Shown piece by piece: positions 20,018-44,976 of a DNA stretch of 64,000 nucleotides. The notes beneath the pieces were generated by a model. It saw only the letters and a list, made by a program, of their open reading frames with translations. It was not told the origin of the DNA and did not search any database. This DNA comes from Peptococcaceae bacterium BRH_c4a (GTDB taxonomy: Bacteria; Bacillota; Desulfotomaculia; Desulfotomaculales; Desulfocucumaceae), in the NCBI GenBank assembly GCA_000961585.1, contig LADN01000043.1:62001-126000 (forward strand), given 5' to 3'. Within the stretch, counting starts at the first letter, position 1. Every line of letters starts with the position of its first letter. The translations under genes and the position numbers were made by a program.

Positions 20018-20075
20018 ATAGTTCACCTTCTCCTGTGCGCATTCCTTGCTCAAAAATTAATTTTCATACCACCGT

Positions 20076-23252: not shown

Positions 23253-23505
23253 TTGTTAATGCCCCCTTTCAAAATACTTCTGAATTCCCTTTGTTTAATG
23301 TGCTGTTTCTACTGGATTGCCCGATTCCGCTTAGCGTCACCCCCTTGTATCATCGTCCGTGCGCTCTCGGATTCTGCCGGAGACAATTGCACCTAACGAT
23401 TCAGACAATTATGAAAATTATATGCAAATTTAAAACAAACTAACTGGGATTTCAAAAAGGCATCAAGCACCGATTGTGTCGACTTTACCTCCAACTCATT
23501 CCAAA
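23253..23505 (-). other. Leader region of the glycyl-radical operon
   Basis: About 240 bases separate the sigma-54 promoter from the first gene. I see a minimal 14-codon frame (MIQGGDAKRNRAIQ, start near 23353) without clear meaning, and no known riboswitch. A regulatory leader is possible but not shown. Confidence 0.3.
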
Positions 23506-23521
23506 TGCAAATTCTATGCCA
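23506..23521 (-). promoter_or_regulatory. Sigma-54 promoter of the glycyl-radical operon
   Basis: The minus strand reads TGGCATAGAATTTGCA: -24 TGGCA, five-base spacer and -12 TTGCA, a perfect match in sequence and spacing. It drives the C-A-B-D operon. A split palindrome lies 41 bases upstream. Confidence 0.85.
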
Positions 23522-23561
23522 ATTTGCCCCGTAGCCCAATAGTTAGGTGCTGTCAAAAAGT

Positions 23562-23600
23562 GTACTACAAACGGACACTCGTTGCGAAGAACAACTGTCC
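23562..23600 (-). promoter_or_regulatory. Upstream activator site, copy 1 (GTACTA-N5-GGACA-N18-TGTCC)
   Basis: GTACTA at 23562-23567, GGACA at 23573-23577 and TGTCC at 23596-23600, followed by TAACAT. The same elements with identical internal spacing occur at 40853-40891, also about 41 bases beyond a sigma-54 promoter. It is the expected binding site of an enhancer-binding protein. Confidence 0.8.
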
Positions 23601-23646
23601 TAACATAAAACACTCTGCACTGGACAATGTATCCGGTGCCTTATTC

Positions 23647-23681
23647 TTAAAAACTGTCCCTGAATGAGACATAATCAGGGA
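23647..23681 (-). terminator. Terminator after the bbs-TRAP operon
   Basis: On the minus strand TCCCTGA, an 11-base loop and TCAGGGA, then CAG and TTTTT. It lies 40 bases past the dctM stop codon, at the expected 3' end of the long operon. Confidence 0.65.
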
Positions 23682-23721
23682 TTCTTCCTGATCAACGATC
23701 ACGATGTGCAACTCCCGTTCC

Positions 23722-25029
23722 CTATTTCACCATATGTGACGGCAACCAAACTGCCAAAGACGGCAAGAAGCCCACAATAGTCAGTATAAGAACGTAAAGC
23801 ACCATAAACGGCCAACTTCCACGGATTACCGCACCAAGTGTGCTGGGAAATCCTAAACCTTTGGCAACACTGTCAACCGCATAAAGATTCAGTCCTACAG
23901 GAGGACTTATGAGGCCTACCTCAATACTTATCACCATCAAGACTGCATACCAAATGAGATCCATGTTGTAGCCTATCAAAGCAGGTAAAAGTATGGGTAA
24001 CATGATCATCATAATCGATGCGCCTTCCAGAAAGCACCCCATTATTAACATAATAGCCACGGTGATCACTATAAAAACTCCCGGAGAAAAACCATTACTT
24101 ACAAAAAAGCCGCTTATAGCTTTCCCCAGGCCAAATTGCGTTACGGCATTGCCAAAAACAATTGCCCCACAAATTATGAACATAACGATGGCAGAATTAT
24201 TTATTGCCTCCCTCAAGATCGGTATAATATCTTTAATCTTTATTGTCCGATAGATGAATATGCCGATTAAAAAAGACCATAGAACTCCCAGGGCCGCTAT
24301 TTCCGTGACGGTCGCCAGCCCTGTATAAAGAGGTACAATAACCCCGATTGGGATAATCAAAGCCCATATACCTTCTTTAAACGCAACCCATCTTTCACTC
24401 CAAGTAGCTGCAACAACTTTTTGTTTGTCCGGTGAACGAAGATATTCCCAAGCCACATAAATTGAGAAAAGAATAACCGCCAAAATGCCTGGAATCACGC
24501 CGGCAATGAATAGCCTGCCCGTAGATTCCTGGGTGAAAGCGCCATACAATATCATAGGTAAACTGGGCGGAATAAGGATGCCCAAAGCCCCCCCGGCCAC
24601 AGTTATACCCAAAGACAAGTGAAAACTGTAACCATATTTCATCAGATTAGAAAGTGCGAAGGAGCCGGCCATGGCCGCAATAGCAACGCTCGTTCCAATC
24701 ATAGCCGCCAAAACAGCACAGGTCAAAATTGTGGCAATGCCTACGCCGCCGGGAATTTGGCGTAGAAAAACGTCAAACAGGTAATATAGCTTTTCTCCTA
24801 TCTTTCCCCTGCCCAAGATAGTCCCCATTAAGATAAACAAGGGTATGGCAAGAAAAATAAAGTCGTTGACGGTATCAAACATTACCTTGGCAGCAACTAC
24901 AATCGCTCCTTCACCGCTAAGAGCACAGAGACCGATTAAGCCTGCGAAACCTAATGCCACAGGCACGGGCGTTCCTATAAGTAACAGCACAATCAGGAGG
25001 ATAACCGCTAGAAGTATAAGACTGGTCAT
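23722..25029 (-). CDS. dctM: TRAP transporter large permease subunit (DctM)
   Basis: 435 residues with about a dozen hydrophobic helices, beginning MTSLILLAVILLIVLLLIG. The family signatures GLISPPVGLNLYAVDSVA near the C-terminus and GILIPPSLPMILYG in the middle are present. It forms the ion-coupled translocation channel. It overlaps the dctQ gene by four bases. It is the last gene of the bbs operon, ahead of the terminator at 23647. The ligand is probably an organic acid of the pathway; identity cannot be read from the permease. Confidence 0.93.
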   Translation of the reverse strand: MTSLILLAVILLIVLLLIGTPVPVALGFAGLIGLCALSGEGAIVVAAKVMFDTVNDFIFLAIPLFILMGTILGRGKIGEKLYYLFDVFLRQIPGGVGIATILTCAVLAAMIGTSVAIAAMAGSFALSNLMKYGYSFHLSLGITVAGGALGILIPPSLPMILYGAFTQESTGRLFIAGVIPGILAVILFSIYVAWEYLRSPDKQKVVAATWSERWVAFKEGIWALIIPIGVIVPLYTGLATVTEIAALGVLWSFLIGIFIYRTIKIKDIIPILREAINNSAIVMFIICGAIVFGNAVTQFGLGKAISGFFVSNGFSPGVFIVITVAIMLIMGCFLEGASIMMIMLPILLPALIGYNMDLIWYAVLMVISIEVGLISPPVGLNLYAVDSVAKGLGFPSTLGAVIRGSWPFMVLYVLILTIVGFLPSLAVWLPSHMVK

Positions 25030-25517
25030 GAAGCATTCTCCCTCATTTTTAACCTTTTTATATATCTAACTGCATCCATCAACGCTACAAGACCGAAAAG
25101 AAACATACCCACCGGTAAAACAATCTGCAACAGATATATTGGTATTTCCAAAAAAGGGGTATGCCGTCCCGAGATATAGGAGGACCAAATCAAATAAAGT
25201 CCTTTCCATGTAATCAAAGCGCTGAAAACCACGCAAGCCAGATCACCCAGGAAACGCATCAACTCCTGTCCTCCCGGGGACAGTTTTCTGGTTAAAATAT
25301 CAACACGTACGTGTCTATTTTCACTAAGGACAAAAGCTATCCCCAGATAAGTCGCCCAAACCGCCCCATAACCGCTTAACTCTTCAACCCATATCATGGA
25401 AACTCCTAGTTTCCTGTCGATGATATTGGCTATCATCGACAGGAACATCACTCCAAGAATTATTCCAGCTAAGGTGTGTGCTGCGGCAGACACCTTTCTT
25501 ATGAAGTCCATAAACAA
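25026..25517 (-). CDS. dctQ: TRAP transporter small permease subunit (DctQ)
   Basis: 163 residues with four predicted membrane helices: one near residues 13-33, a WVEELSGYGAVWATYLGIAF helix about 43-63, and two in the second half (ACVVFSALITWK; QIVLPVGMFLFGLVAL). ENRHVRVDIL after helix 2 is a DctQ hallmark. It couples the binding protein to the large permease. Placed between dctP and dctM in the usual order. Confidence 0.9.
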   Translation of the reverse strand: MFMDFIRKVSAAAHTLAGIILGVMFLSMIANIIDRKLGVSMIWVEELSGYGAVWATYLGIAFVLSENRHVRVDILTRKLSPGGQELMRFLGDLACVVFSALITWKGLYLIWSSYISGRHTPFLEIPIYLLQIVLPVGMFLFGLVALMDAVRYIKRLKMRENAS

Positions 25518-25586
25518 ACCCCCAATTTCAAAGCGCTTGTAAGTCTGCCCCCCTTTTTTTAAGGAGGGGCAATTTCTATTCCGCTA

Positions 25587-26642
25587 TTACTGTTTCAATT
25601 GGGATTTAATTTCTTGAATTTCTTTAATATCAGCTAAGATCTGCGGATAATCTTTATAAAGTGAATGCCAAAGCTTATCTTTATCCCCAGTAAATTGCTT
25701 AAGTTCCTCGGGAGTTGGGGTGTAAATTTTAATGCCTTTTTCGGCGCCAGCCTTTAATATGGCATCTAAATTGGTCTTGGCGGCTGCCGCAGTCTTATCT
25801 TCGACTTCTTTAGTTGCTTCACTGATGGCCTTCTGAAGTTCCGGGTTCAACTTATCGTAAAATCGTTTATTCATTATAATCATCGATGCCCGTGCGCTAT
25901 AGGGCAAAAGCGTGAAGTCAGGAGCAACTTCATATAGTTTCCGTTCGACCGAAGTTGTCACCGTTCCTTCGGAGCCTTGGATTACTCCGCGCTGTAAACC
26001 CATGTACAATTCAGAACCGTTGAGATAAGATATATTACTTCCCCACTGTTTGTAAATCGCTGCGGTATCAGGGCCTGTAGCCCGTAAGGTTAGCCCTTTG
26101 GCATCGGCCGGAGTCTTAACCTGTTTGCTTACGATCAACCCGCCTTCTTCCATTGACCAGGGAATAAACAAAACTCCTTTCATTCCCTGTTTTTCCATCT
26201 CAGCCTCTAAACGACTGCGGATTGGACTGGTTAAAACTTTTTGAGTTATCTCAGTCACTTTTCCTTCAAAAAGAAATGGCGCCGCAAAAATCCTCGCTTC
26301 AGGGACCGATTTGGCCAGATTAAAATCATAGGCATGCCCGGCCTCAATCGCACCAGTTTGTACCGCTTCTAAGACATCAGCGTCTTTATACAACTGCCCG
26401 GCTGGATAGACCTGAACTTCCACCCGGCCCTTGGATTTCTCCATCACCAGCTCCGCCCAGGCCCGCATTTGTGCAGAAATATAGTGCTTCTCCGGTAACG
26501 CATGACTTAAACGAATCACTATTTTTTGAGTCCGGTCATTCTCTGAAGTATTTCCTCCTTGTCCACCACCACAACCTGCTAGACTTGCCACTAATAAAAT
26601 TATCAAACCCACAATCGACCATTTGTTGTATTTTTTTAGCAT
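25587..26642 (-). CDS. dctP: TRAP transporter solute-binding lipoprotein (DctP)
   Basis: About 351 residues. A lipoprotein signal (MLKKYNKWSIVGLIILLV then SLAGC) gives a membrane-anchored receptor outside the cell. Family features include LSHALPEKHY, RVEVQVYPAGQLYKD, and the ligand-ring Arg in LTLRATGPDT, where DctP receptors usually bind a carboxylate. ATG 26642 is used because AGGAGGAATATTT precedes it; the longer frame would overlap the CoA-transferase gene. Cotranscription with bbs genes suggests uptake of a carboxylated aromatic or dicarboxylate. Confidence 0.92.
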   Translation of the reverse strand: MLKKYNKWSIVGLIILLVASLAGCGGGQGGNTSENDRTQKIVIRLSHALPEKHYISAQMRAWAELVMEKSKGRVEVQVYPAGQLYKDADVLEAVQTGAIEAGHAYDFNLAKSVPEARIFAAPFLFEGKVTEITQKVLTSPIRSRLEAEMEKQGMKGVLFIPWSMEEGGLIVSKQVKTPADAKGLTLRATGPDTAAIYKQWGSNISYLNGSELYMGLQRGVIQGSEGTVTTSVERKLYEVAPDFTLLPYSARASMIIMNKRFYDKLNPELQKAISEATKEVEDKTAAAAKTNLDAILKAGAEKGIKIYTPTPEELKQFTGDKDKLWHSLYKDYPQILADIKEIQEIKSQLKQ

Positions 26643-26667
26643 AAATATTCCTCCTCGTCGTGAGCCC

Positions 26668-27888
26668 TTAATCAAAAACACCTTCCTTCTTCATTTCTTC
26701 GAACATACCCTCATCCAAATTGAGCAAATCTTTCATGACCTGTTTTGTGTGTTCGCCAAGCAGCGGAGCGGCTTGATCCAGCACGGCAGGGGTCTTGGAC
26801 ATGTGAACCGGAGAATAGTTGTAAACATGGTAACCCATTTCAGGATGATCGAGGTAAACAAAATGTCTACGGTAATTGAGTTGGGGGTCATGAAGTACGT
26901 CCCGGGCATCTTTAACCAGGCCGGCTCTAACTTTGGCCTTTATCAATAGCCTCAATAGATCATCACCTGCATAATTAACAGTCCAATGCGCAATGATCTC
27001 GTTCAACTCAGTCTGGTTGGCTATCCGCTCGGCATTCGCTGCAAAAGCGTCCTTTTCAGCCCATTCAGGCATGCCCATCGCAGCCTTCAATGATTGCCAT
27101 TCATCCTCACTTTGTACCGCTAATGCGATCCAGCGATTTTTACCCTGAACCGGATAGATGCCGTGAGGTGCAAAATCTAAATGCTGGTTGCCCTGCCGAT
27201 TTTGAACCCGTCCGTTGATCATGTAGTCCATAATCGGAGTTGGCAGCACACACAGGGGAGCTTCTATTTGGGATAACTCAATGTACTGGCCTTCCCCGGT
27301 TTTCTTCTTATGCCGCAGAGCGGCAAGGATAGCGAACGCAGTGTGCATTGGGTTGGGTACATGATCTGGATAGTTGGTTCCCATCCCGAATGGTTCTTCT
27401 TCCGGGAAACCGGTGAGATGAAGAATTCCAATTAAAGAGCTGACTTGAACACCAAATCCCCGATAATTGACATGAGGTCCGTCGGATCCCATCAGGGGCA
27501 TGCCTGCGTAGATAATATCCGGCTTGATCTTCCGAACATCCTCATACCCCAATCCCCATCTTTCCATCGTATGCGCCGTAAAATTCTCACAGATTATATC
27601 ACTCTTTCTAATTAACTCTTTGATGATCTCCAAGGCGCGGCGATGTTTTAAGTTCAAGGATATGCCCTTTTTATTGGGATTCCTGTTGCTGAAATAACCG
27701 CTTCTTTCCACACCCGCCCTGCCATCTTTAAAAGGAGGCAAGAGCCTCAAGTAATCCAAACGCGTTCCTGATTCGATTTTGATAACCTCAGCCCCATATT
27801 CCGCCAGAACTTGTGTGGTGATAGGACCCGCCCCTACCCAGGTGAAATCAAGAACCCTGATGCCGTTAAGAGGAAGCTTGTGCGACAA
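26668..27888 (-). CDS. Class III CoA-transferase subunit, second of pair (BbsF position), lacks catalytic Asp
   Basis: 406 residues of the CaiB/BaiF family, starting (M)SHKLPLNGIRVLDFTWVG. TTG 27888 is chosen since AAGGGGG lies seven bases upstream and the family begins here; it overlaps the preceding gene by 23 bases. In the partner the catalytic Asp follows GPYRDYPWSD; here the matching segment reads NYRGFGVQVSS with no Asp, so this is likely the non-catalytic subunit of a heteromer. By gene order it corresponds to BbsF, part of succinyl-CoA:benzylsuccinate CoA-transferase. The other enzyme half is encoded directly upstream. Confidence 0.85.
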   Translation of the reverse strand: MSHKLPLNGIRVLDFTWVGAGPITTQVLAEYGAEVIKIESGTRLDYLRLLPPFKDGRAGVERSGYFSNRNPNKKGISLNLKHRRALEIIKELIRKSDIICENFTAHTMERWGLGYEDVRKIKPDIIYAGMPLMGSDGPHVNYRGFGVQVSSLIGILHLTGFPEEEPFGMGTNYPDHVPNPMHTAFAILAALRHKKKTGEGQYIELSQIEAPLCVLPTPIMDYMINGRVQNRQGNQHLDFAPHGIYPVQGKNRWIALAVQSEDEWQSLKAAMGMPEWAEKDAFAANAERIANQTELNEIIAHWTVNYAGDDLLRLLIKAKVRAGLVKDARDVLHDPQLNYRRHFVYLDHPEMGYHVYNYSPVHMSKTPAVLDQAAPLLGEHTKQVMKDLLNLDEGMFEEMKKEGVFD

Positions 27889-29113
27889 AGCATACACCCC
27901 CTTGCATAAAATCTTGGATCTGTTTCGCATCATACCCAATCTCCTGGAGGATTTCCGCTGTATGTTGTCCCAATTTAGGGGGCTCTGCGCCAAGATTCCA
28001 GGGTGTTTGCGACAACCGGTAAGGAGCCCCGGGCATAAACACTTGCCCTCCAAGACTCTCGCTGAAATAATCGGCCATGAACTTCCTGTACCTGATATGG
28101 GAATCTTCACAAATGTCTCTCGGGTTATTCACGGGATGAATAGTCACCCGCCGGTTCTGACCATTCTCAAAGAGATATAACTTATTGTGCTTCATTGTAA
28201 ATGGAACAAATATTTCATTAAACCGTTGCTTTGCTTCAGCTTTTCGCCGAAATTGCGGCGTTTTCCATTCATCCTGGATAAAAATATCCGCCCCTTCCAC
28301 TTTTTCTTCAATAAGCCAGTCGACGAAAGTATTCCAAAGATTGACATTACCACCGATCCCCGCCACAAGGTAAACATAACCGTCCTGGCACGGATAAATT
28401 CCCATCCCGGCTTCAAAATGCCCTATACCTCGCCGGATGCTTCCTTCCAGGTCATAGAGCTGTATGGCATTTTCGAGAGCGGTAGCAACACATTCCTGGA
28501 GAGACACATCCAGATACTGCCCTCTGCCGCTGTATTCAGCTTCAATCAAGGCTAACATGCTCCCCGTTGCCGCATGCATCGCCCCCATCATGAACGCCTG
28601 ATTGTCTGGAACACGGGCCGGTAAATCGTCACCCTGAGCAGCCAGGTAGAGCAGTCCCCCCATGGCCAAAGTTGTAATATCCGACCAGGGATAATCACGG
28701 TACGGGCCATTTTGCCCATACCCTGTCACGGATGTATAGACGAGTTTGGGATTGATTGCGCTCAGTCGGTCATAACCCAGGTTCAACTTATTCAAATACC
28801 CTGGCGGAGAGCTTTCCAGAAGCAAATCAGCAGTCTTTGCCAGTTTAAGGAAAATTTCTTTTCCCTGCTCCTTTTCAATATCGAGCACGATGCCCTTCTT
28901 ACCCGTATTTTGATAGATGAATTGCAGACTCCCTTCTTTGTCAGGGATATCCTTATAAAAAGGAGCGGCTCTTCTAACCGGATTGCCTTCAATTGGCTCA
29001 ATCTGAATAACTTCCGCGCCAAGGTTGGCAAATAATTTTCCGGTATAATTGCCAATTTCGCCTGCAAATTCCAGTACCCGAATACCACTCAAAGAACCTT
29101 GACTTTTGCTCAT
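27866..29113 (-). CDS. Class III CoA-transferase subunit, catalytic (BbsE position)
   Basis: 415 residues of the CaiB/BaiF family. The expected catalytic Asp is Asp145 in RDYPWSDITT, following GYGQNGPY; PDNQAFMMGAMHAATG and the glycine-rich region are conserved. With its downstream partner it would transfer CoA from succinyl-CoA to the (R)-arylsuccinate made by the glycyl radical enzyme, so the succinyl-CoA formed at the end of the cycle is recycled. Order A-B-C-D-E-F in the operon is that of the denitrifier bbs cluster. Confidence 0.88.
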   Translation of the reverse strand: MSKSQGSLSGIRVLEFAGEIGNYTGKLFANLGAEVIQIEPIEGNPVRRAAPFYKDIPDKEGSLQFIYQNTGKKGIVLDIEKEQGKEIFLKLAKTADLLLESSPPGYLNKLNLGYDRLSAINPKLVYTSVTGYGQNGPYRDYPWSDITTLAMGGLLYLAAQGDDLPARVPDNQAFMMGAMHAATGSMLALIEAEYSGRGQYLDVSLQECVATALENAIQLYDLEGSIRRGIGHFEAGMGIYPCQDGYVYLVAGIGGNVNLWNTFVDWLIEEKVEGADIFIQDEWKTPQFRRKAEAKQRFNEIFVPFTMKHNKLYLFENGQNRRVTIHPVNNPRDICEDSHIRYRKFMADYFSESLGGQVFMPGAPYRLSQTPWNLGAEPPKLGQHTAEILQEIGYDAKQIQDFMQGGVCFVAQASS

Positions 29114-29147
29114 AATCCATCCCTTACCTTCGTACAGTTTTACCTAA

Positions 29148-29900
29148 TTACCCAATATTGGCAAAAAGGCTCTTACCTCCGCATACATACAGGGTTTGAC
29201 CATTAATATATCCGGCCTCATCGCTCGCAAAAAACATCACGGTACGGGCAATATCACGGGGCGATCCTATCCTCCCCATGGGCTGAGCTTTCAGCAGCCG
29301 CTCTTTTCCTTCCTCCGGCAAAGAGTGCCACATAGGAGTCTCGATCAGCCCCGGCGGTATGCAGTTTACAGTGATCCCCCGTTTCCCCAGCTCCAGCGCC
29401 AATGTTCTGGTCAGCGCCACCACCCCGGCTTTTGCCGCCGAGTAATTTGCCTGCCCGGGCCCTCCCAGCCAAGCCCGCGACGATATGTTGACGATCCGCC
29501 CGTAGCCCTGTTCGCGCATATATTTAACCGCTTCCTGACTACACAGGAATACGCCTTTGAGGTCAACCTCCAGCACCTTGTCCCAATCCTCTTCCGTCAT
29601 TTTCAAAAACGCCTTATCCCGAAAAATTCCAGCATTATTTACCAATATATCAATCCTGCCATAAGTGTTCACAACTTGCTTGAACATCGCTTCCACTTCA
29701 GCTTTTTTGGTAATATCAGCAACCACTCCCATGACTTCCCCGCCAGCTTCCTTGATTCCCTTGACCACCTCATCCACCATGCCCTGATTAACGTCATTGA
29801 TTACTGTTTTTACTCCATGTTGGGCCATTATCTCGGCCGTACCCCTGCCCATCCCGCTGGCAGATCCGGTTATCAAGGCTACTCTTCCCTTAATCTGCAT
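29148..29900 (-). CDS. SDR 3-hydroxyacyl-CoA dehydrogenase subunit (BbsD position)
   Basis: 250 residues. TGSASGMG nucleotide motif, NNAGIF, Ser of NISSRAWLGG and Tyr/Lys of NYSAAKAG are all present, so it looks catalytically competent. By position it is BbsD of the 2-(alpha-hydroxybenzyl)succinyl-CoA dehydrogenase. It ends YINGQTLYVCGGKSLFANIG, sharing its unusual GGKS C-terminus with the adjacent SDR, which suggests the two form a complex. Confidence 0.86.
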   Translation of the reverse strand: MQIKGRVALITGSASGMGRGTAEIMAQHGVKTVINDVNQGMVDEVVKGIKEAGGEVMGVVADITKKAEVEAMFKQVVNTYGRIDILVNNAGIFRDKAFLKMTEEDWDKVLEVDLKGVFLCSQEAVKYMREQGYGRIVNISSRAWLGGPGQANYSAAKAGVVALTRTLALELGKRGITVNCIPPGLIETPMWHSLPEEGKERLLKAQPMGRIGSPRDIARTVMFFASDEAGYINGQTLYVCGGKSLFANIG

Positions 29901-29937
29901 GATTCGTTTACCTCCCTGAATTTTTCCTTTTCTTCCT

Positions 29938-30693
29938 CTATACCGACAAGGAACTCAGCACACTCTTGCCTCCGCAGATAAAGATGGTCTGTCCCGTGAC
30001 GTAGTCAGCTTCATCATCAGCGAAAAACAACACTCCATACCCAATATCTTCCGGTTTGCCAATCGTTTTCGTCGGCTGAGATTTCATAAGGTTCTCTTTA
30101 ATGTTATCCGGCAAAGCATCATACAAGGGCGTCTGGATCAAGCCCGGGGCTATACAGTTAACTGTGATCTGGTGCTTCGCCAATTCCAAGGCCAACGTCC
30201 TGCTGAAACTCACCAGTCCCCCTTTCGATGACGCATAATTGGCTTGCGTCGGCCACCCAAGATAAGCCCTTGATGAAATATTGACGATTCGTCCAAATTT
30301 CCGTTCCTTCATGTAAGGAACTACTGTCTGGCTCAACAGAAAAGGTCCTTTTAAATTTACATCAAGCACAATGTCCCAATCTTCTTCCGTGATTTTCAGC
30401 AAGCCCTTGTCCCGGGCTATACCTGCGTTATTAACCAGAATGTCCACCGTTCCAAACTGTTTCACAATCTTTTGCACCAAGTCCTGCACCTGATCTTTCT
30501 TCGAAATATCAGCTGCTACTCCCAGTGCTTCCCCACCGGCAGATTTGATCTTTTTCACCACTTTGTCCACTTTCGCCTGATCAACATCGTTAACGACCAC
30601 CTTGGCACCGTTTTGGGCCAACATCATCACTGTTGTTTCACCCAGTCCGCTCCCTGATCCGGTTACCAGCGCAACCCTGTTTTGTACACCCAT
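29938..30693 (-). CDS. SDR 3-hydroxyacyl-CoA dehydrogenase subunit (BbsC position)
   Basis: 251 residues and clearly a paralogue of the next SDR. TGSGSGLG nucleotide motif, NNAGIA, Ser of NISSRAYLG and Tyr/Lys of NYASSKGG are all intact. By gene order it occupies the BbsC place. In Thauera the BbsC subunit is reported as an inactive pseudoenzyme; that is not evident here since all motifs survive. It would help oxidise the hydroxy intermediate with NAD. Confidence 0.86.
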   Translation of the reverse strand: MGVQNRVALVTGSGSGLGETTVMMLAQNGAKVVVNDVDQAKVDKVVKKIKSAGGEALGVAADISKKDQVQDLVQKIVKQFGTVDILVNNAGIARDKGLLKITEEDWDIVLDVNLKGPFLLSQTVVPYMKERKFGRIVNISSRAYLGWPTQANYASSKGGLVSFSRTLALELAKHQITVNCIAPGLIQTPLYDALPDNIKENLMKSQPTKTIGKPEDIGYGVLFFADDEADYVTGQTIFICGGKSVLSSLSV

Positions 30694-30730
30694 TTTATCC
30701 GGCTCCTTTCTTTGCTTCAGATCTTCAAAA

Positions 30731-31885
30731 TTACCTGCTTAAGATATGAATCGTGCACACAGCGTTATCCAAACCGTAGATTCCGCCGCCTGTGACATGG
30801 GTCATGGCCACTTTACAGTCCGGCACCTGCATAGCTCCGGCTTCATTGCGCAACTGCCAGGTCGCTTCCACGATCTGCGCAGCCCCGCTGCATCCCGTCG
30901 GATGCCCGCACGACAATAAGCCTCCCCGTGGACTGAACACGACTTTACCGCCATAGTCGTTGCCGCCACTGCGGATAAATTCCACTCCTTCGCCATGCCC
31001 ACAGAACCCCATGGCTTCCGTATACAAATGCTCATTAATCGCAAAGGCGTCATGACACTCAACCATATCGATATCCTCCGGGCCAACCCCGGCGATCTCA
31101 TAGGCTTCTTTAGCGCCCCTGACCGTTATCTCCATCGAAGTCATGTCCCGGAACCCATTGCTGAAAATTCCCGAAGTGACTTCACGCGCTAAGAACCGCA
31201 CTGGTTTGCTGCCCAACTGCATGGCCTTTTCCTTGGTGGCGACAATCACTGCCGCACCTGCGTCGGTGTTGGGGCAACTCATCAGCAATGTCAGCGGATC
31301 ACTGATCGAACGCGCATTAACAACTTGCTCCACCGTAATGGGATCATGGAATTGCGAACGCGGGTTATTCATGGCATGACGCCTGTTTTTCACCGCCACC
31401 AGCGCAATATCCTCGGGCGTGGCTCCAAATTCCTCCATATAGCGTTTGGCTCTCATGGCATAGATCCCCGGCATGGTTATCCCCTGAACCCCTTCCGGAT
31501 CATTGGCATCGGGGGAAAAAGCCGTTCCGCTCGCTCTGGTCGCAGAAATATTCTGAACTCCCACCGCCATCGAAATATCTGTAACTCCGTTTGCCACGTC
31601 TTTAACCGCCAGGTTTACCGCCAAAGCCCCACTGGAACAGGCACTTTCCACGTTCATCATGGGTACTCCGCCCATCCCCATAGTCGTAGCCACCCGCTGT
31701 CCGAAACAGATGCTGCCTGATAGTCCTGGCATCTCCCCTACATAGATGCTCTGAACCTGTTTGGGACCGATCCCGGCATCTCTCACCGCATTGAACACCG
31801 CCTGCCGGCCAAGATCAGCGGCGGACAGCGGAGATTTCTTATAATAGTTCGTCATCCCTACGCCAATAACATAAACATCCCTCAT
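30731..31885 (-). CDS. SCP-x-type thiolase (BbsB position)
   Basis: 384 residues with non-decarboxylating thiolase features of the SCP-x group: active Cys in VESACSSGALAV, HDAFAINEHLY, and GLLSCGHPTGCSG. In the toluene pathway BbsB, together with BbsA, cleaves benzoylsuccinyl-CoA to benzoyl-CoA and succinyl-CoA. Its gene begins three bases after the OB-fold gene ends, the bbsAB arrangement. Substrate follows from context. Confidence 0.9.
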   Translation of the reverse strand: MRDVYVIGVGMTNYYKKSPLSAADLGRQAVFNAVRDAGIGPKQVQSIYVGEMPGLSGSICFGQRVATTMGMGGVPMMNVESACSSGALAVNLAVKDVANGVTDISMAVGVQNISATRASGTAFSPDANDPEGVQGITMPGIYAMRAKRYMEEFGATPEDIALVAVKNRRHAMNNPRSQFHDPITVEQVVNARSISDPLTLLMSCPNTDAGAAVIVATKEKAMQLGSKPVRFLAREVTSGIFSNGFRDMTSMEITVRGAKEAYEIAGVGPEDIDMVECHDAFAINEHLYTEAMGFCGHGEGVEFIRSGGNDYGGKVVFSPRGGLLSCGHPTGCSGAAQIVEATWQLRNEAGAMQVPDCKVAMTHVTGGGIYGLDNAVCTIHILSR

Positions 31886-31887
31886 TA

Positions 31888-32343: not shown

Positions 32344-32456
32344 GCTAAATACCCCCTAATCCTATATATTTTATTAACCAACCAATTCGGACATCCCTTA
32401 ACAAACCAAGTTGCGCATTCTTTCCCTGGCGCACAGAAGGTCATGCACCTCCTTTC

Positions 32457-33236: not shown

Positions 33237-33351
33237 TTTACACCCTCCATCCCGTTAATTCTATGATCATCCGCTGTTCCCAAACTAAACGTACCTTCCT
33301 GAGCAAAGATGCAATAAACCATATCTGCCATAACCTATAAACGGATTTTGG

Positions 33352-34197
33352 TTAATACTCATAAAAACCTCTTCCGGACTTTCTGCCTAAATGGCCTGCC
33401 CGCATCATCTGTCTCAGAAGTGGAGCGGCTTTAAACTTAGGGCCGAATTCGTTTTCCAGAATACCTAAAACATAAACAATGACGTCAATGCCCACCAAAT
33501 CCATCAGGGCGCAGGGGCCCTGGGGCATATTAGTACAGTAGACCATGGCGTCATCTACATCTTTAGGTGTATTGCCGTCCATAACTGTGTAAGCCGCTTC
33601 ATTTAAATACGCATTTAGAACCCGGCTTGTTATAAAGCCGGCATAATCTTGAGCCACAACCGGGATCTTATTGATGCTGCAGGTAAATTCGACAGCAGAG
33701 TCAATGGTTTCCTGAGATGTAACCCTACCCCTGATCAATTCAACGCCCCTCATAACCGGGACAGGATTCATGAAATGCATGCCGATTACTTGTTGGGGGC
33801 GCTTTGTTGCGGCCGCAATGGCGGTAATCGGGAGGGAGGAGGTATTAGACGCCAGAATAGCATGTTTGGGAGCTAATTTGTCTAATTCTCCAAAGATTCC
33901 CACTTTTAAGTCGAGCTGTTCGGGTACGGCCTCAATGATCAAATCAGCATCCGAAACAACATCCAGAGATGTGCCGGGAACAATCCGGCTGAGAATATTA
34001 TCTTTTTCCTCTACGCTAATCTTCTTTTTTTCAACAAGTTTAGACAGGCTCTTTTCTATTCTCTGCTGTGCCCGAGACAGCAAGTAATCGCTAATATCCT
34101 GCATCTTAACCCGATAGCCGCTCTGAGCAATAACTTGTATTATACCGCTCCCCATAGTACCCGTCCCCAAAACAACAACCCGGCTTATTTTAATCAA
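33352..34197 (-). CDS. 3-hydroxyacyl-CoA (3-hydroxybutyryl-CoA) dehydrogenase
   Basis: 281 residues, starting (M)IKISRVVVLGTGTMGSG, the NAD-binding motif. Catalytic His in HFMNPVPVMRGVE, ASNTSSLP, and a closing HLGRKSGRGFYEY. TTG 34197 has AAGGAG eight bases upstream and gives the standard length. It probably oxidises (S)-3-hydroxybutyryl-CoA ahead of the adjacent thiolase, completing the lower route to acetyl-CoA. Confidence 0.92.
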   Translation of the reverse strand: MIKISRVVVLGTGTMGSGIIQVIAQSGYRVKMQDISDYLLSRAQQRIEKSLSKLVEKKKISVEEKDNILSRIVPGTSLDVVSDADLIIEAVPEQLDLKVGIFGELDKLAPKHAILASNTSSLPITAIAAATKRPQQVIGMHFMNPVPVMRGVELIRGRVTSQETIDSAVEFTCSINKIPVVAQDYAGFITSRVLNAYLNEAAYTVMDGNTPKDVDDAMVYCTNMPQGPCALMDLVGIDVIVYVLGILENEFGPKFKAAPLLRQMMRAGHLGRKSGRGFYEY

Positions 34198-34247
34198 TTG
34201 ACGCACTCCTTTTTCACGTAAGTTAAACATCCGCATCTCGCCATGCG

Positions 34248-35441
34248 TTAAGGTAGATCAGGTATTTTTTCGATTATTACGGACATCCCCATGCCTCCTC
34301 CGGAGCACAGCGTGGCCAGGCCTTTTCTTAAATCACGCTTATACATTTCATGGATTAAAGATACTACAATGCGGATCCCTGAACACCCGACAGGATGCCC
34401 TAAAGCGATACCGCTGCCGTTAACATTAGTGATCTTACGATCCAGTCCCAATTCTTTTTCCACGGCTAAATACTGGGCGGCAAAAGCCTCATTGACTTCA
34501 AATAAATCAATATCTGCAATCGTCAGTTCCGCTTTTTTCAATGCCTTACGGGTTGCGGGTACGGGACCAATCCCCATGTAATCGGGATCTACCCCCACTA
34601 CCGCATACGAAAGCAACCTGGCAAGGGGTTTTATCCCTAATCTATCCGCCGCACGCTCAGACATTATCAGCACCCCGGCAGAACCATCATTAATTCCAGA
34701 AGCATTGCCGGCGGTAACTGTGCCTCCTTTTAGAAAAACCGGCGGCAATTTCGCCAGTTTCTCCAAAGTCATATTATCTTTCGGGTATTCATCTTTATTT
34801 ACATATACCGGATCATCTTTGCGCTGCGGTATGCCGACAGGTAAAATTTCATCATTGAACCGGCCTTCTTTTATTGCCGCCACAGCCCGGTGTTGGCTTT
34901 GCAACGCTATTTCGTCCTGTTCCTCACGGGTTATGTTGTACTTTTTGGCGACATTCTCAGCTGTAATACCCATCCCAACGCCGGTACCCAGTTGCGTAAG
35001 GCCATCCCACATACTGTCACGCAGTTCGATGTGCCTCATTTGCGAGCCCCACCTTACTTCATCAACAGTATAGGGGACTGTGCTCATGCTCTCGGTCCCC
35101 CCGGCCAAAATAACTTCCGCATCTCCGCATTTAATTGCCTGAGCTCCCATAACCAAACTTGACATCGCAGAAGTACAGGTCCGGTGAACAGTTATCCCCG
35201 GCACTTCGACAGGTATGCCGGCTTGCAATGCCGCCACCCGAGCCAAGTTTGTCTCGTCTTTGGTGCGTTGATAGCAACAACCCCAGATAATATCGTCAAT
35301 AATTGCCGGATCGATTCCGGATCGCCTAATTAATTCTTGCATTACCGGCACAGTCAGAGCGGGTGCTCTTAGCTCCTTGAACACTCCTCCATAACTTCCA
35401 ATCGGAGTACGCACTGCCGCTACAATCACGACATCGTCCAT
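34248..35441 (-). CDS. Acetyl-CoA acetyltransferase (thiolase)
   Basis: 397 residues; active Cys in TVHRTCTSAMSSL, NEAFAAQYL, NVNGSGIALGHPVGCSG and CSGGGMGM. Adjacent to the 3-hydroxybutyryl-CoA dehydrogenase gene, so thiolysis of acetoacetyl-CoA is likely. HRTCTS differs from the common HRQCAS/NKVCGS forms. Confidence 0.9.
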   Translation of the reverse strand: MDDVVIVAAVRTPIGSYGGVFKELRAPALTVPVMQELIRRSGIDPAIIDDIIWGCCYQRTKDETNLARVAALQAGIPVEVPGITVHRTCTSAMSSLVMGAQAIKCGDAEVILAGGTESMSTVPYTVDEVRWGSQMRHIELRDSMWDGLTQLGTGVGMGITAENVAKKYNITREEQDEIALQSQHRAVAAIKEGRFNDEILPVGIPQRKDDPVYVNKDEYPKDNMTLEKLAKLPPVFLKGGTVTAGNASGINDGSAGVLIMSERAADRLGIKPLARLLSYAVVGVDPDYMGIGPVPATRKALKKAELTIADIDLFEVNEAFAAQYLAVEKELGLDRKITNVNGSGIALGHPVGCSGIRIVVSLIHEMYKRDLRKGLATLCSGGGMGMSVIIEKIPDLP

Positions 35442-35464
35442 TTTTCTTCTCCCCCTTCGTCATG

Positions 35465-35875
35465 CTACTTGTCTGGATCATAGACCTCGATTTGTACGCC
35501 GTGAGCTGATTTTGGATGGATAAAATTAGCGGTTCCAAATTTCCCTTTCATTGGTTGGTCCATGACAAATATTGCACCGGCTTCCCTCAATCTGGCCATG
35601 TCCTCCTCCACATTGTCAGACCTGAGGGAAAGCAAAAATACCCCTTCTCCTTTGGCGCTGACAAATTTCGCAATTGATGAATTCTCTGACTCTGATGCGA
35701 TAATATTAAAGACAAAACCATTAAGGTCAAAGACCGCGCCTTTTAGTCCGGGAACGGCAAATTGATCTCCGGTCAACCTTTTCGTTGGCTTGGACCCCAA
35801 CAACCCCTCGAATTTTTTGACTGCCTCTTCAAGATCTCTGACTGCTATATTGATACCGTGAACACCCTTAATCAC
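35465..35875 (-). CDS. VOC/glyoxalase-fold protein, methylmalonyl-CoA epimerase-like
   Basis: About 136 residues with the paired beta-alpha-beta-beta-beta modules of the vicinal-oxygen-chelate fold: IKGVHGINIAVRDLEEA at the start and FIHPKSAHGVQIEVYDP at the end, giving the His and Glu metal ligands. Methylmalonyl-CoA epimerase is the nearest functional idea; it would help to channel succinyl-CoA/propionyl-CoA carbon. The second module is less conserved, so another isomerase function in arylsuccinyl-CoA metabolism is possible. GTG 35875 is preferred, eight bases from GGGAGG; earlier codons are in frame. Confidence 0.7.
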   Translation of the reverse strand: MIKGVHGINIAVRDLEEAVKKFEGLLGSKPTKRLTGDQFAVPGLKGAVFDLNGFVFNIIASESENSSIAKFVSAKGEGVFLLSLRSDNVEEDMARLREAGAIFVMDQPMKGKFGTANFIHPKSAHGVQIEVYDPDK

Positions 35876-35892
35876 AATCAACACCTCCCAAA

Positions 35893-36666
35893 TTATTTAA
35901 AAAAATTAGAGACTGACTGTTTAAACTTTGGACTATTAAACATTTCGGCCTGGCAAATCACTTCTTGGGCAAGAGTGTGGCTAAAAGACATATTAGCGTT
36001 ATTCTGCACCAGTCTTTTTATTTTTTCATACGCTTCAGTGGGACCGTTGGCCAACTGCTTTGCCATGGTCAATGCGCGTTGCTCCATTTCCTCTTTGGGG
36101 AGGACATAATTCAGTAATCCTATTGCCAACGCCTCACCGGCCGTAATGGGGTTCCCCAGGTACATCAGCTCCAAAGCTTTGGTTTTTCCGAGTATTGCCG
36201 GTATTAGATAACTGGATCCCAAATCAGGCAATAAACCAATATTTGAAAACGAAAACCGGATGCTCGTATCTGGTGTCGCTAAGCGCAAATCGCATAAGAG
36301 GGAAACAGTAGGACCTCCGCCTGCTACGATGCCATGTAAGCAGGCAATGGTTGGGAGAGGTAAATCATACCAACGTTGGGCAAACCAATGATACTTAGCT
36401 AAAAGCATTAGTGCAATGTTTTTTTCATTCTCCAGAATATCTTGAAATGTCTTTAAATCGGCGCCGCTACAAAACCCGCGACCGGCGCCGCGTAATATGA
36501 CAACTCTATACATTTCTGGGTAGCCGGCTTCAATCTCATCAATCAGTTGGAGTAATTCTGTCAACATTTCTTCATTTATCGCATTTATCTTTTCGGGACG
36601 ATTAAGTGTCACCAGCAATATTCCAGGGTCAGATAATTCCACTTTCAGAGTATTGAACGATTTCAA
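35893..36666 (-). CDS. Enoyl-CoA hydratase/isomerase family protein, atypical acid/base site (candidate BbsH)
   Basis: About 257 residues of crotonase fold. FCSGADLKTF, oxyanion loop GIVAGGGPTVSLLCD. The first catalytic Glu of hydratases is Ser (FSFSNIGLL), an Asp follows in LPDLGSS, and the second Glu (ALELMYLG) is kept, a pattern more like isomerases. It lies directly after the acyl-CoA dehydrogenase gene, where BbsH would be expected. TTG 36666 has GGGGGG seven bases upstream; ATG 36681 is an alternative. Confidence 0.78.
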   Translation of the reverse strand: MKSFNTLKVELSDPGILLVTLNRPEKINAINEEMLTELLQLIDEIEAGYPEMYRVVILRGAGRGFCSGADLKTFQDILENEKNIALMLLAKYHWFAQRWYDLPLPTIACLHGIVAGGGPTVSLLCDLRLATPDTSIRFSFSNIGLLPDLGSSYLIPAILGKTKALELMYLGNPITAGEALAIGLLNYVLPKEEMEQRALTMAKQLANGPTEAYEKIKRLVQNNANMSFSHTLAQEVICQAEMFNSPKFKQSVSNFFK

Positions 36667-36704
36667 GCAACAACCCCCCATATGTTATCCAGAGTTTATT
36701 GAAA

Positions 36705-37838
36705 TTATTTAAGCAAGAGATTCGCCACAATCTGTCGCTGGATCTGGTTGGTGCCTTCATAAATCTGAGTAATCTTAGCATCCCGCACCAGTTTTTCCAT
36801 CGGGTATTCTTTCATATAGCCATAGCCGCCGAATATCTGCAAGCATTCAACCGTCACTTTCATCGCTGTATCGCTGGCGACACACTTTGCTGTTGCGCTT
36901 AACATACTATCAACCCGGCCTGAGTCGATTTTCGCAGCCGCCTGCCAGACCAGTGCCCGGGAAGCCATCACAGCCATGACCATATCCGCCAGCATGAACT
37001 GTATCGCTTGGTGCTCAGCAATCGGTTTTCCGAACTGTACACGCTGCTTGGCATAACTTACCGCTTCATCAACCGCCCTCTGGGCAACACCAACAGCAGC
37101 CGCAGCAATCGCCGGACGAGTGACATCAAGAGTGCGCATGGCAATCTTGAACCCTTCTCCTTCGTTACCCAGGCGGTTTGCGACGGGCACGCGCACATCT
37201 TCAAGCAATACTTCAGCGATATGCGACGCCCGGTCTCCCATCTTATCTTCTTTTTTCCCCATCGACAATCCGGGAGTGCCGGCCGGTACAAGGAAGGCCG
37301 TCAATCCCTTGATACCCCGACTTTTGTCTGTGCTGGCAAAAACTATGTGAAGATCCGCTATGCCGCCATGGGTAATGAAACATTTCGAGCCATCGAGGAT
37401 GTACTCATTGCCAACCTTTCTGGCGCGGGTTGATATTGCGCTGGCGTCCGACCCTGCGTTTGGTTCTGTTAAGGCAAATGCGGCCAGACGGGCACTCTCC
37501 ACAAAAGCAGGCAGAAATCTGTCTTTTTGTTCATCGGTGCCGCTTATTAGAAGAGGGGTGAGCGCAAGGCTGTTTCCCCCAAATGCGCCAAATACCCCCA
37601 GACACCCATATGCCAGTTCTTCGTAGACCAGCGCCTCCGTAAAATGGTCCAGACCCTGTCCATCATACTTTTCCGGAATATTTAAGTTCCACAAACCGAT
37701 TCCGAACGCTTTTTGAATGACAGGCCACGGGATTTCGGCTTTTTGATCATATTCAGCGGCAACGGGAATAATTTCGTTCTTCGCAAAATCTCTCGCCAAC
37801 TTCCGGATTTCCTTCTGTTCATCGGTAAGTTCAAACAT
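36705..37838 (-). CDS. Acyl-CoA dehydrogenase (BbsG-like, arylsuccinyl-CoA dehydrogenase candidate)
   Basis: 377 residues from ATG 37838 (MFELTDEQKEIRKLARDFA). FAD-dependent acyl-CoA dehydrogenase fold: FALTEPNAGSDA, ECLQIFGGYGYMKEYP, and catalytic Glu361 in QIYEGTNQIQR. In the bbs pathway BbsG oxidises (R)-benzylsuccinyl-CoA to phenylitaconyl-CoA. It is the only acyl-CoA dehydrogenase in the operon, which supports this role. A TTG at 37865 is in frame but overlaps the upstream thiolase stop; ATG with GGGAG twelve bases upstream is preferred. Confidence 0.88.
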   Translation of the reverse strand: MFELTDEQKEIRKLARDFAKNEIIPVAAEYDQKAEIPWPVIQKAFGIGLWNLNIPEKYDGQGLDHFTEALVYEELAYGCLGVFGAFGGNSLALTPLLISGTDEQKDRFLPAFVESARLAAFALTEPNAGSDASAISTRARKVGNEYILDGSKCFITHGGIADLHIVFASTDKSRGIKGLTAFLVPAGTPGLSMGKKEDKMGDRASHIAEVLLEDVRVPVANRLGNEGEGFKIAMRTLDVTRPAIAAAAVGVAQRAVDEAVSYAKQRVQFGKPIAEHQAIQFMLADMVMAVMASRALVWQAAAKIDSGRVDSMLSATAKCVASDTAMKVTVECLQIFGGYGYMKEYPMEKLVRDAKITQIYEGTNQIQRQIVANLLLK

Positions 37839-37861
37839 AGCTGCCACTCTCCCTGTTTGTT

Positions 37862-39067
37862 TCAATCGACTCTCACAATAATTGCGTCACCTTGGGCCAA
37901 ACCACCGCAAATCGCAGCTACACCATACCCGCCCCCCCGCCTTCTCAGTTCATGAATCATGGTCATCACAATTCTGGCGCCGCTGGCGGTATTGGGGTGG
38001 CCGATAGCAATAGCTCCTCCGTTGACATTGAGACGTTTCCTAATCTTCCTGAGTTCTCCAGGGTCACCGTCGGCCAGTATTTTGCTGCTGACCAGAGTTA
38101 CTGCCGCAAAAGCCTCATTGATTTCAAGTAATTTAAGGTCGTCTATCTTCAGGGCTGCCTTCTGCAAGGCAGCCCTGATGGCTTTAGCCGGAGTTTCCAC
38201 TAAAAGATGAGGCTCCATCGCTATGCTGACGGATGTAATTACCGTAGCAAGAATGGGCAGTCCTAAAGCCAGGGCTTTATTCCTGCTCATTAACAGGACT
38301 GCCGTCGCGCCATCATTTAAGCCGGGCGCATTGCCTGCGGTGCATGTCGGACTTCCATAAATCGGAGCAAGCCTTGCCAGTTTGTCTAAAGAAACGTCCG
38401 TCCGATACTGCTCATCAATCTCCAGGGTGACAGGCTCACCTTTCTTCTGGGAGATGGTTAAGGGGATTATTTCTTCTTTTAGTTTCCCTTCGGCATGAGC
38501 CTCACCGTAGCGATGGTGGCTGAGCACTGCCCATTGATCCTGTTCCTTGCGACCGACTCCGTGCATCAAAGCCATTTTCCCGGCATCGACGGCTACGGGC
38601 GCAAAGTCCTTATAGCCTAATTCAAACAGTGGATCTTCCATGCTGACAGGCCCCATCCGATGTCCGGCAAATCTCAGGTTCCGAACAACATGTGGAATTT
38701 GACTGAATGTTGTGACACCTCCGGCAATGACTGCATCCGCTTCTCCCGCCAAAATGGTTAAGGCGCCTAAACGGATAGCGGACATTGCCGAAACACAGGC
38801 TTTGTCCAGCGAGCATGACTGTGTTTCCGGGGACAGCCCCGCCTTTAAGAGTGTTTGCCGGGCAATCACCGGGGTATATACGTCTTTAAAGGATACTGTA
38901 TCGCCGACACCCCAGAAAACGTCATCTACTGAACCGTCATAACCACTCCGGTTAATAATCTCGCACATGACAATTGCTCCCAGATTGACCGGGCTATATT
39001 CTTTCAGGCTTCCGCCAAACCTACCGAAAGGGGTTCTCGCAGCGCTAACAATAACTACCTCATTCAT
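37862..39067 (-). CDS. Thiolase family acyltransferase
   Basis: 401 residues. Active Cys in SLDKACVSAMSAI, EINEAFAAV, NVNGGAIAIGHPNTASG and ICGGLAQGD. The HPNTASG loop and SLDKAC pocket differ from the acetoacetyl-CoA thiolase at 34.2 kb, so a different acyl chain is likely. It could serve a side branch of the aromatic substrate. It runs into the acyl-CoA dehydrogenase gene with overlap of the alternative start. Confidence 0.85.
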   Translation of the reverse strand: MNEVVIVSAARTPFGRFGGSLKEYSPVNLGAIVMCEIINRSGYDGSVDDVFWGVGDTVSFKDVYTPVIARQTLLKAGLSPETQSCSLDKACVSAMSAIRLGALTILAGEADAVIAGGVTTFSQIPHVVRNLRFAGHRMGPVSMEDPLFELGYKDFAPVAVDAGKMALMHGVGRKEQDQWAVLSHHRYGEAHAEGKLKEEIIPLTISQKKGEPVTLEIDEQYRTDVSLDKLARLAPIYGSPTCTAGNAPGLNDGATAVLLMSRNKALALGLPILATVITSVSIAMEPHLLVETPAKAIRAALQKAALKIDDLKLLEINEAFAAVTLVSSKILADGDPGELRKIRKRLNVNGGAIAIGHPNTASGARIVMTMIHELRRRGGGYGVAAICGGLAQGDAIIVRVD

Positions 39068-39088
39068 TTCAGTCCCCCAAATCCAATT

Positions 39089-39865
39089 TCAATGGATACT
39101 CCAACCTCCATCAACAATCAAAACCTGACCATGCACATAATCGGAAGCGTTCGAAGCAAGATACACTACAGCTCCTTTGATGTCATCATCGTTGCCAAAA
39201 CGACCGGCTGGAATGTAGTCAAGAAAGTCATTGCGGCGCAGTTCGAGTATTTTTTCGGCCATGTGCGTCGGAAACCACCCGGGAGAAAGGGTGTTTACGT
39301 TCACTCCGAATGGAGCCCATTTAGCCGCTAAATCCCTGGTCATGTTGATAACTGCCCCTTTGCTCGCATTATAGGCTGCAGCATCCATTATATTGGTCTT
39401 GCACCCTACCAAACCCATTACAGATGCGATATTAATGATTTTCCCTTTACCCTGTTTTTTCATGACCTTAAAAGCTTCTTTCGCCGCCATAAAGGTCCCG
39501 GTTAAGTTGACATCAATCACCTGCCGCCATTTATCCATGGGATATTCGGCAGCGGGTGCTCCCCACGTGATTCCCGCATTATTTACAAGGATGTCCAGAC
39601 GGTCAAAAGTTTCCATGGTCCGGTTGACCATAGTAACGATATCTCCCTCCCTGGCCACATCGCATTGAACAGCAATGGCCTTATTGCCAAATAACTGACT
39701 TATTTCGAGTGCGACCTTTTCACAACGTTCCATCTTGCGGGCCGCCAAAACTAAATTGGCGCCGGACTCGGCTAAGGCATAGGCCATTTGTTTGCCCAGC
39801 CCGGTGTAACCGCCGGTTACCACTGCCGTTTTACCGGAAAGATTAAATAAGTCCTTCAAATACAC
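39089..39865 (-). CDS. Short-chain dehydrogenase/reductase
   Basis: 258 residues with TGGYTGLGKQ, NNAGITWG, a Ser in NIASVMG, a YNASKGAVI Tyr/Lys pair, and an ending YVHGQVLIVDGGWSIH. It is a classical SDR related to gluconate-type dehydrogenases. In this operon it may oxidise a hydroxyacyl-CoA or an alcohol of the aromatic route. The substrate is unknown. Confidence 0.83.
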   Translation of the reverse strand: MYLKDLFNLSGKTAVVTGGYTGLGKQMAYALAESGANLVLAARKMERCEKVALEISQLFGNKAIAVQCDVAREGDIVTMVNRTMETFDRLDILVNNAGITWGAPAAEYPMDKWRQVIDVNLTGTFMAAKEAFKVMKKQGKGKIINIASVMGLVGCKTNIMDAAAYNASKGAVINMTRDLAAKWAPFGVNVNTLSPGWFPTHMAEKILELRRNDFLDYIPAGRFGNDDDIKGAVVYLASNASDYVHGQVLIVDGGWSIH

Positions 39866-39953
39866 AATAATTCATCACCTTTACTGTCTAGGGACAAAAT
39901 TTACCGGTAGCTTTACCTTAATACGTTATTTGGCAGAAATTCTCTTCCACTAC

Positions 39954-40736
39954 TCAATAGCCGTTATATCTCGGTGATCTCTTTTCTAAGAAGGCCTTCA
40001 TCCCCTCCTTTTGATCTTGGGTAGAGAAGCAATGCGCAAAGCAGTTTATCTCAAATTCCAGACCTTCGTCGGTATCTGAGCCTACAGCGCGGTGAATGCA
40101 ACGTTTAGCCATGGCTAGAGCAATGGGAGCCTTTTGAGATAGTTTTTTCGCTAATTGTACTGCCACAGGCACAAGTTGTTCCGCTTCTACCACTTGATAT
40201 ACTAAACCTATCTGCAACGCTTGTTCGGCTGAAATAATCTCACCAAGCATGATCATCTCCTTGGCCTTGCTCATTCCTACCAGTCTGGTCAGACGTTGGG
40301 TGCCGCCATTTCCCGGAATGATTCCTAAATTAATTTCCGGCTGACCGAATTTAGCGGTGCTTGCTGCCACGCGAAAGTCACAAGCCAGCGCCAATTCACA
40401 GCCGCCGCCCAGTGCCAGTCCGTTAATGGCGGCAATTACCGGCTTAGACATTGTCTCAATACGCAATACAGTTTCCTTGCCTGCTGCAGCAAAATGGATT
40501 GCCTCGTTGGAGTTCATTGCACTCATAGCTGCAATGTCTGCTCCGGCAACAAAGGCTTTTATACCTGCTCCGGTGATAATCACAGCCTTTACTGCCGGGT
40601 CGGAAGACAACGCTATCAAACATTTATTTAGTTCATGATAGACAGCCGGACTTAAGGCGTTAAGTAATTCGGGGCGATTAATCGTTATGGTTGCTATCCC
40701 GTCATGCACATTGACAAGGATATATGCGAAATCCAT
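39954..40736 (-). CDS. Enoyl-CoA hydratase (crotonase)
   Basis: 260 residues from ATG 40736 (MDFAYILVNVHDGIATITI). Both catalytic glutamates (QPEINLGIIPGNGGTQRL and KAKEMIMLG) and the oxyanion loop NGLALGGGCELALACD are present. It is the first gene of the long bbs-TRAP operon, 60 bases from a sigma-54 promoter. GGAG is nine bases upstream of the ATG. Likely crotonyl-CoA hydratase, or the BbsH step. Confidence 0.9.
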   Translation of the reverse strand: MDFAYILVNVHDGIATITINRPELLNALSPAVYHELNKCLIALSSDPAVKAVIITGAGIKAFVAGADIAAMSAMNSNEAIHFAAAGKETVLRIETMSKPVIAAINGLALGGGCELALACDFRVAASTAKFGQPEINLGIIPGNGGTQRLTRLVGMSKAKEMIMLGEIISAEQALQIGLVYQVVEAEQLVPVAVQLAKKLSQKAPIALAMAKRCIHRAVGSDTDEGLEFEINCFAHCFSTQDQKEGMKAFLEKRSPRYNGY

Positions 40737-40795
40737 CCGGCACCACTCCACCTTTAGAAATTAACTTTTGTCTCGCTCCACCTGACATTATATTT

Positions 40796-40811
40796 AGCAA
40801 ACTTTATGCCA
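40796..40811 (-). promoter_or_regulatory. Sigma-54 promoter of the bbs-TRAP operon
   Basis: Minus strand TGGCATAAAGTTTGCT, perfect -24/-12 spacing. The gene at 40736 begins 60 bases downstream. All genes from 40.7 down to 23.7 kb read away from it with short gaps, so it can drive the whole 17-kb unit. Confidence 0.85.
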
Positions 40812-40852
40812 GGTTAAAATATTGCCCATTTTTGCTAACCTTGGCTTGAGTT

Positions 40853-40891
40853 GTACTAAAAAAGGACATTCCGCCAGAGGATTGGCTGTCC
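40853..40891 (-). promoter_or_regulatory. Upstream activator site, copy 2 (GTACTA-N5-GGACA-N18-TGTCC)
   Basis: GTACTA at 40853-40858, GGACA at 40864-40868 and TGTCC at 40887-40891, then TAAAAT. Internal spacing is identical to copy 1 and the distance to the -24 box is 42 bases against 41. The divergent regulator gene at 41148 is the natural candidate for the protein that binds here. Confidence 0.8.
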
Positions 40892-44964: not shown

Positions 44965-44976
44965 GGAGGAATTGGT

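Follow-up and report, generated by a model that had tools for sequence, protein, structure and literature searches.

The 64,000-bp stretch of the Peptococcaceae bacterium BRH_c4a genome analysed here (contig LADN01000043.1, positions 62,001 to 126,000; the window) carries two operons predicted to serve the anaerobic degradation of a toluene-like hydrocarbon, operon A for a benzylsuccinate-synthase-like (bss-like) glycyl radical enzyme and operon B for bbs-like beta-oxidation enzymes and a TRAP transporter. This raises the question of whether the two are controlled together, and by which protein. The initial annotation had placed both in one regulon, most simply under the divergent activator gene at 41148, and this proposal was supported, with no third copy of the shared promoter pattern found in the genome. 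On the sequence evidence, it is likely (probability roughly 0.84) that promoters A and B are sigma-54 promoters activated via tandem TGT-N11-ACA dyads by the divergent enhancer-binding protein (EBP), and that both operons form one regulon.

Paired dyads upstream of two predicted sigma-54 promoters

Sigma-54 boxes were found, as annotated previously, ahead of both operons on the minus strand (23521–23507 at promoter A and 40811–40797 at promoter B), and both match TGGCAY-N5-TTGC, position 6 being T instead of C. The sequence GTACTA-N5-GGACA-N18-TGTCC followed by TAA was likewise present at both promoters (23562–23600 and 40853–40891), at the reported distances of 41 and 42 bases between the -24 box and GTACTA. 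However, the description of GGACA-N18-TGTCC as a single split palindrome was a mis-parse and is rejected. GGACA and TGTCC are the inner halves of two adjacent TGT-N11-ACA dyads separated by the N18 gap, and GTACTA forms the outer half of the dyad closer to the -24 box.

Each promoter is preceded by two tandem 17-bp dyads whose centres, 35 bp apart, fall some 48 and 83 bp ahead of the -24 box. Along the transcribed strand the sequence is TGTTTTATGTTAGGACA-N18-TGTCCGTTTGTAGTACA at promoter A and TGTCTGATTTTAGGACA-N18-TGTCCTTTTTTAGTACA at promoter B, and a symmetric consensus, TGTCCTAnnnTAGGACA, emerges from the five exact dyads. The promoter features are as follows.

23507–23521, minus strand: sigma-54 box of promoter A (bss operon), TGGCATAGAATTTGC, by pattern match
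23561–23577, minus strand: predicted activator site 2 of promoter A, TGTCCGTTTGTAGTACA, with its start 56 bp upstream of the -24 box
23596–23612, minus strand: predicted activator site 1 of promoter A, TGTTTTATGTTAGGACA, with its start 91 bp upstream of the -24 box
23655–23671, minus strand: possible third site of promoter A, TGTCTCATTCAGGGACA, role uncertain
40797–40811, minus strand: sigma-54 box of promoter B, TGGCATAAAGTTTGC, by pattern match
40852–40868, minus strand: predicted activator site 2 of promoter B, TGTCCTTTTTTAGTACA, with its start 57 bp upstream of the -24 box
40887–40903, minus strand: predicted activator site 1 of promoter B, TGTCTGATTTTAGGACA, with its start 92 bp upstream of the -24 box
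40947–40963, minus strand: possible third site of promoter B, CGT-N11-ACA with one mismatch, overlapping the -35 region of the activator gene's promoter

The whole genome (3.49 Mb in 98 contigs, with a stated completeness of 100) was searched by patterns; it is a draft, and a further copy of the motif could lie in an assembly gap. GTACTA-N5-GGACA-N18-TGTCC had two exact matches, at promoters A and B, with none expected from shuffles of the window. The single match with two mismatches was the opposite-strand reading of one of these places, leaving only the two places at up to two mismatches in the full-genome scan that the initial annotation had proposed, and matches with three mismatches were background, at the level of a reversed-pattern control. 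A fuller pattern allowing up to three mismatches found only promoters A and B, and the pair pattern TGT-N11-ACA-N18-TGT-N11-ACA likewise occurred at no other place than these two, each read on both strands (control 0 in both searches). Promoters A and B were also the only sites genome-wide at which a sigma-54 box has TGT-N11-ACA 26–56 bp away (control 0).

The best in-register identity between the two upstream regions was 36 over 52 nt, against a mean of 21.6 and a maximum of 28 in 2000 dinucleotide shuffles, and TGT-N11-ACA was found three times upstream of A (shuffle mean 0.12) and twice upstream of B (shuffle mean 0.04). The shared upstream pattern is not due to chance, and the earlier view that such common spacing would be improbable holds.

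Other observations were made on or near these regions. TGGGC is found exactly 12 bases ahead of the -24 box in both promoters (window 23492–23540 and 40785–40830) and in the related genome G074. A leader of ~240 bases (23253–23495) separates the expected start of promoter A from bssC, and an Rfam search of this leader gave no real match. At 4585–4619, two more TGT-N11-ACA dyads lie close together, with one base between them, and no sigma-54 box was recognised nearby.

The candidate activator

The gene divergent from operon B encodes the candidate activator, and the dyad pair of promoter B sits between this gene and operon B.

40956–40984, plus strand: sigma-70-like promoter for the activator, TTCAAA-N17-TATAAT, the -10 region being preceded by TG
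41022–43088, plus strand: GAF-PAS-AAA+(GAFTGA)-Fis helix-turn-helix (HTH) EBP, starting at 41022 or at GTG 41148

The GTG start at 41148 is backed by a ribosome-binding-like GGGGG and by the starts of homologues. The domain order is that of AcoR/DhaR-type activators, with a GAF and a PAS domain followed by an AAA+ sigma-54 domain containing GAFTGA and a Fis HTH. The protein scored under the curated NCBIfam equivalog cut-offs for DhaR (371 against 551 bits) and PrdR (397 against 795 bits), and is by sequence kin of DhaR and PrdR, not a member of either group.

TGT-N10-12-ACA is the site form of 15 Clostridiales EBP groups, in which an EBP gene usually adjoins its target and the majority of targets carry multiple sites (PMC6615313). 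The features of a sigma-54/EBP regulon are found together in the window, namely a -24/-12 box before each operon, TGT-N10-12-ACA upstream, and an activator with AAA+, GAFTGA and Fis HTH.

The sites, their spacing and uniqueness in the genome, the protein domains and the comparative pattern described below are directly established, and a mechanism can be proposed. The divergent AcoR/DhaR-like EBP, probably in the form of two dimers, would bind the dyads with its Fis-type HTH, and this would help the AAA+ ring to assemble. Its GAF/PAS region may sense a signal, perhaps a hydrocarbon or its succinate adduct, upon which the GAFTGA loop would act on sigma-54 at both promoters, switching on the fumarate-adding enzyme together with the beta-oxidation and uptake genes. 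The weaker third site over the -35 region of the activator's own promoter may allow autoregulation.

Two further regulatory loci were recorded in the window. Genes for a NarL-type histidine kinase and a response regulator with a LuxR-type HTH lie directly downstream of the activator gene (43219–45651), and a second EBP gene (54884–56296) is followed by a sigma-54 box of its own, at 56440, which lacks a TGT-N11-ACA dyad.

Related genomes and alternative explanations

A genome from another genus of the same family (G007) encodes an EBP with 45% identity to the divergent EBP, and the two proteins have the HTH stretch ELGIARSTLYRK in common. Divergent from the G007 gene is a sigma-54 box preceded by TGTCTCATGATAGGACA at -92 and TGTCCGGTTTTCGGACA at -59, matching the dyad pair of the window in its distance from the box, but the dyads there precede unrelated genes (phosphotriesterase-type, old-yellow-enzyme-type and transporter, named by eye from sequence). 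In 113 genomes of the class, a sigma-54 box with TGT-N9-GGACA was found at both window promoters, in G007 and at one place in G034 (control 3). Phylum-wide, the paired-dyad pattern matched promoter B and one other genome, G444.

Several observations weigh against assigning the dyads to the divergent EBP. The sister EBPs over the whole length (L081 and L086) differ in the HTH stretch and have TGTTGC-type sites. In the whole-length tree, the window EBP and the G007 protein are not sisters, and the link between site and protein therefore rests on the HTH. G016 has a nearly identical recognition helix with no TGTCC dyads nearby, and because of this exception the HTH link is supportive rather than proof, and the recognition helix by itself was rejected as a predictor of the half-site. 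The possible third sites are weak or, like the dyad at 23655–23671, double as a terminator-like hairpin, in this case after dctM. The genome also contains 27 EBP matches, which imply that a sigma-54 gene is present.

With so many EBPs, and with the TGT-N10-12-ACA form common to many EBP groups, the dyads could serve a single regulon under a different EBP of this genome, such as that at 54884; 38 of 263 EBPs were not beside their targets (PMC6615313). This is improbable, as operon B and the divergent EBP flank the site pair, no dyad accompanies the promoter box belonging to the EBP at 54884, and in G007 the same sites adjoin the gene of a relative that has this HTH stretch. It is considerably less probable still that the palindromes are bound by the adjacent NarL-type pair. 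Its response regulator has a LuxR-type HTH, and TdiR, a known bss regulator, is also a response regulator (PMC5874301), but sigma-54 promoters require an AAA+ activator, TGT-N11-ACA is the form bound by Fis-HTH EBPs, and the TdiR operator GGTGTTCGCACC was searched for near promoters A and B and was absent. Coincidence among short motifs chosen after looking can be given almost no weight. The first pattern was indeed composed from the two sites, and TGT-N11-ACA dyads often occur singly (13 in the window against 9.4 expected), but an independently motivated pattern, the published site form with a sigma-54 box, picks exactly promoters A and B genome-wide, and the paired-dyad control was 0.

The shared block might instead be a duplicate of promoter B that arose when an ancestral single operon was split, the second copy being a recent relic rather than maintained control. 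In two related genomes (G074 and G076) the bbs genes continue straight into bssC, with no sigma-54 box and no dyad in the gap, and in the window the TRAP genes and promoter A occupy this point, indicating that promoter A was either gained in the window's lineage or lost in the other. However, the copies differ between the dyads and between the dyads and the -24 box while the dyad ends and the box agree, which is the pattern of selection and not of a fresh copy. A relic is thus a slight prospect, and a duplicate origin would in any case be compatible with function.

Further support for activation by the divergent EBP comes from the genus of these two genomes (g38; G074–G077, L115 and L117). G074, G076 and G077 have an orthologous first gene (84% identical) with the -24/-12 region kept, but no TGT-N11-ACA, GGACA or TGTCC was found in the 300 bp upstream. 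The g38 genomes have one EBP each, compared with 15–32 in the other four genomes compared, and in the two read it is of the CBS-PAS-PAS type. In the three genomes with the orthologous gene, the sites and this activator are thus missing together.

Operon genes, known systems and significance

The genes of the two operons are listed below.

18368–19003, minus strand: DUF4125 protein, end of operon A
19025–20053, minus strand: bssD-like radical-SAM activase
20172–20390, minus strand: bssB-like small subunit, from position and conservation in relatives, with no Pfam match
20476–23040, minus strand: bssA-like glycyl radical enzyme
23073–23252, minus strand: bssC-like small subunit (BssC_TutF), first gene of operon A
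23722–40751, minus strand: operon B, with ECH1, SDR, thiolase, acyl-CoA dehydrogenase, ECH, epimerase-like, thiolase, HAD, ECH, bbsA-F-like and TRAP dctPQM genes

The bssA-like enzyme has the active-site Cys and the Gly motif and is closest to BssA/TutD, with TutD as its closest solved relative (786 bits, against 447 bits for MasD), and a small subunit of the BssC/TutF kind is encoded in operon A. It is about equally distant from TutD and from the bss-like enzymes of G029 and G019, two genomes of the same class. From its sequence the operon A enzyme is benzylsuccinate-synthase-like, and at such a distance the substrate, toluene or other, is not readable from sequence.

The DUF4125 gene recurs near bss-like clusters in three genomes (window 18368–19003; L054:1014–1607; L056:7703–8293; L071:2250–2771) with 35–61% identity, and its product is a candidate accessory protein. 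A second bss-like glycyl radical enzyme, 58% identical, is encoded outside the window in the same genome (L071:13261–15696) with its own bbs set (L071, L072). Upstream of this set are a sigma-54 box (L072:6238) and a separate EBP gene (L072:6497), with no TGT-N11-ACA dyads.

The canonical bss operons of G029 and G019 also have a sigma-54 box upstream and a divergent EBP gene, showing that sigma-54 control of bss is not special to the window. Neither has TGT-N11-ACA dyads upstream, and the G029 EBP (L054:1997–3964; sigma-54 box at L054:4232) has a PrpR_N sensor. A tentative generalisation, somewhat short of an even chance, would be that fumarate-adding operons across the class keep sigma-54 promoters while their activators are swapped, with a GAF-PAS EBP and dyads in the window, a PrpR_N EBP in G029, and in g38 a box without dyads and a single EBP, the promoter either working without a recognisable site or being silent.

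The arrangement in the window resembles the Clostridiales EBP/sigma-54 regulons in its one-component EBP with PAS and Fis HTH, its TGT-N10-12-ACA sites, several per promoter, its activator gene beside a target and its small regulon, but the sites are nearer the promoter than the usual 100–250 bp (PMC6615313). The text of that study makes no mention of benzylsuccinate synthase. In the denitrifiers, a single regulator of the TdiSR/TutC1B1 type likewise serves bss and bbs promoters that are separate but have a palindrome in common, and TdiR drives both promoters in Azoarcus through a palindrome unlike that of the window (PMC5874301). However, it is a response regulator whose operator, GGTGTTCGCACC, lies ahead of -35 regions (PMC5874301), whereas sigma-54 boxes, TGT-N11-ACA dyads and an AAA+ activator are found here. 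XylR-like regulators, which also belong to the sigma-54-activator family, adjoin bss in the obligate anaerobes Geobacter and Desulfobacula (PMC5874301); by comparison, the sensor here is GAF+PAS of the AcoR/DhaR kind and the site architecture has been worked out. The bss genes of Geotalea daltonii, from another phylum, depend on sigma-54 as predicted here, with no activator or activator site given in the available portion of that report (PMC11497800).

The suggestion of a different control logic therefore holds relative to TdiSR/TutB1C1 of the denitrifiers, but the XylR-like regulators and joint TdiR control (PMC5874301) and sigma-54-dependent bss in Geotalea daltonii (PMC11497800) were known before. 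Joint bss/bbs control and sigma-54 control of bss have already been reported, and it is the details of the activator sites that are new in this setting.

Evidence on regulators in this lineage is thin compared with the denitrifiers. The window offers a concrete predicted pair of activator and sites for joint control of fumarate addition and beta-oxidation in an uncharacterised anaerobic hydrocarbon-degrader lineage, and the orthologous operons in which the sigma-54 box is kept while dyads and activator are both lost provide a natural experiment.

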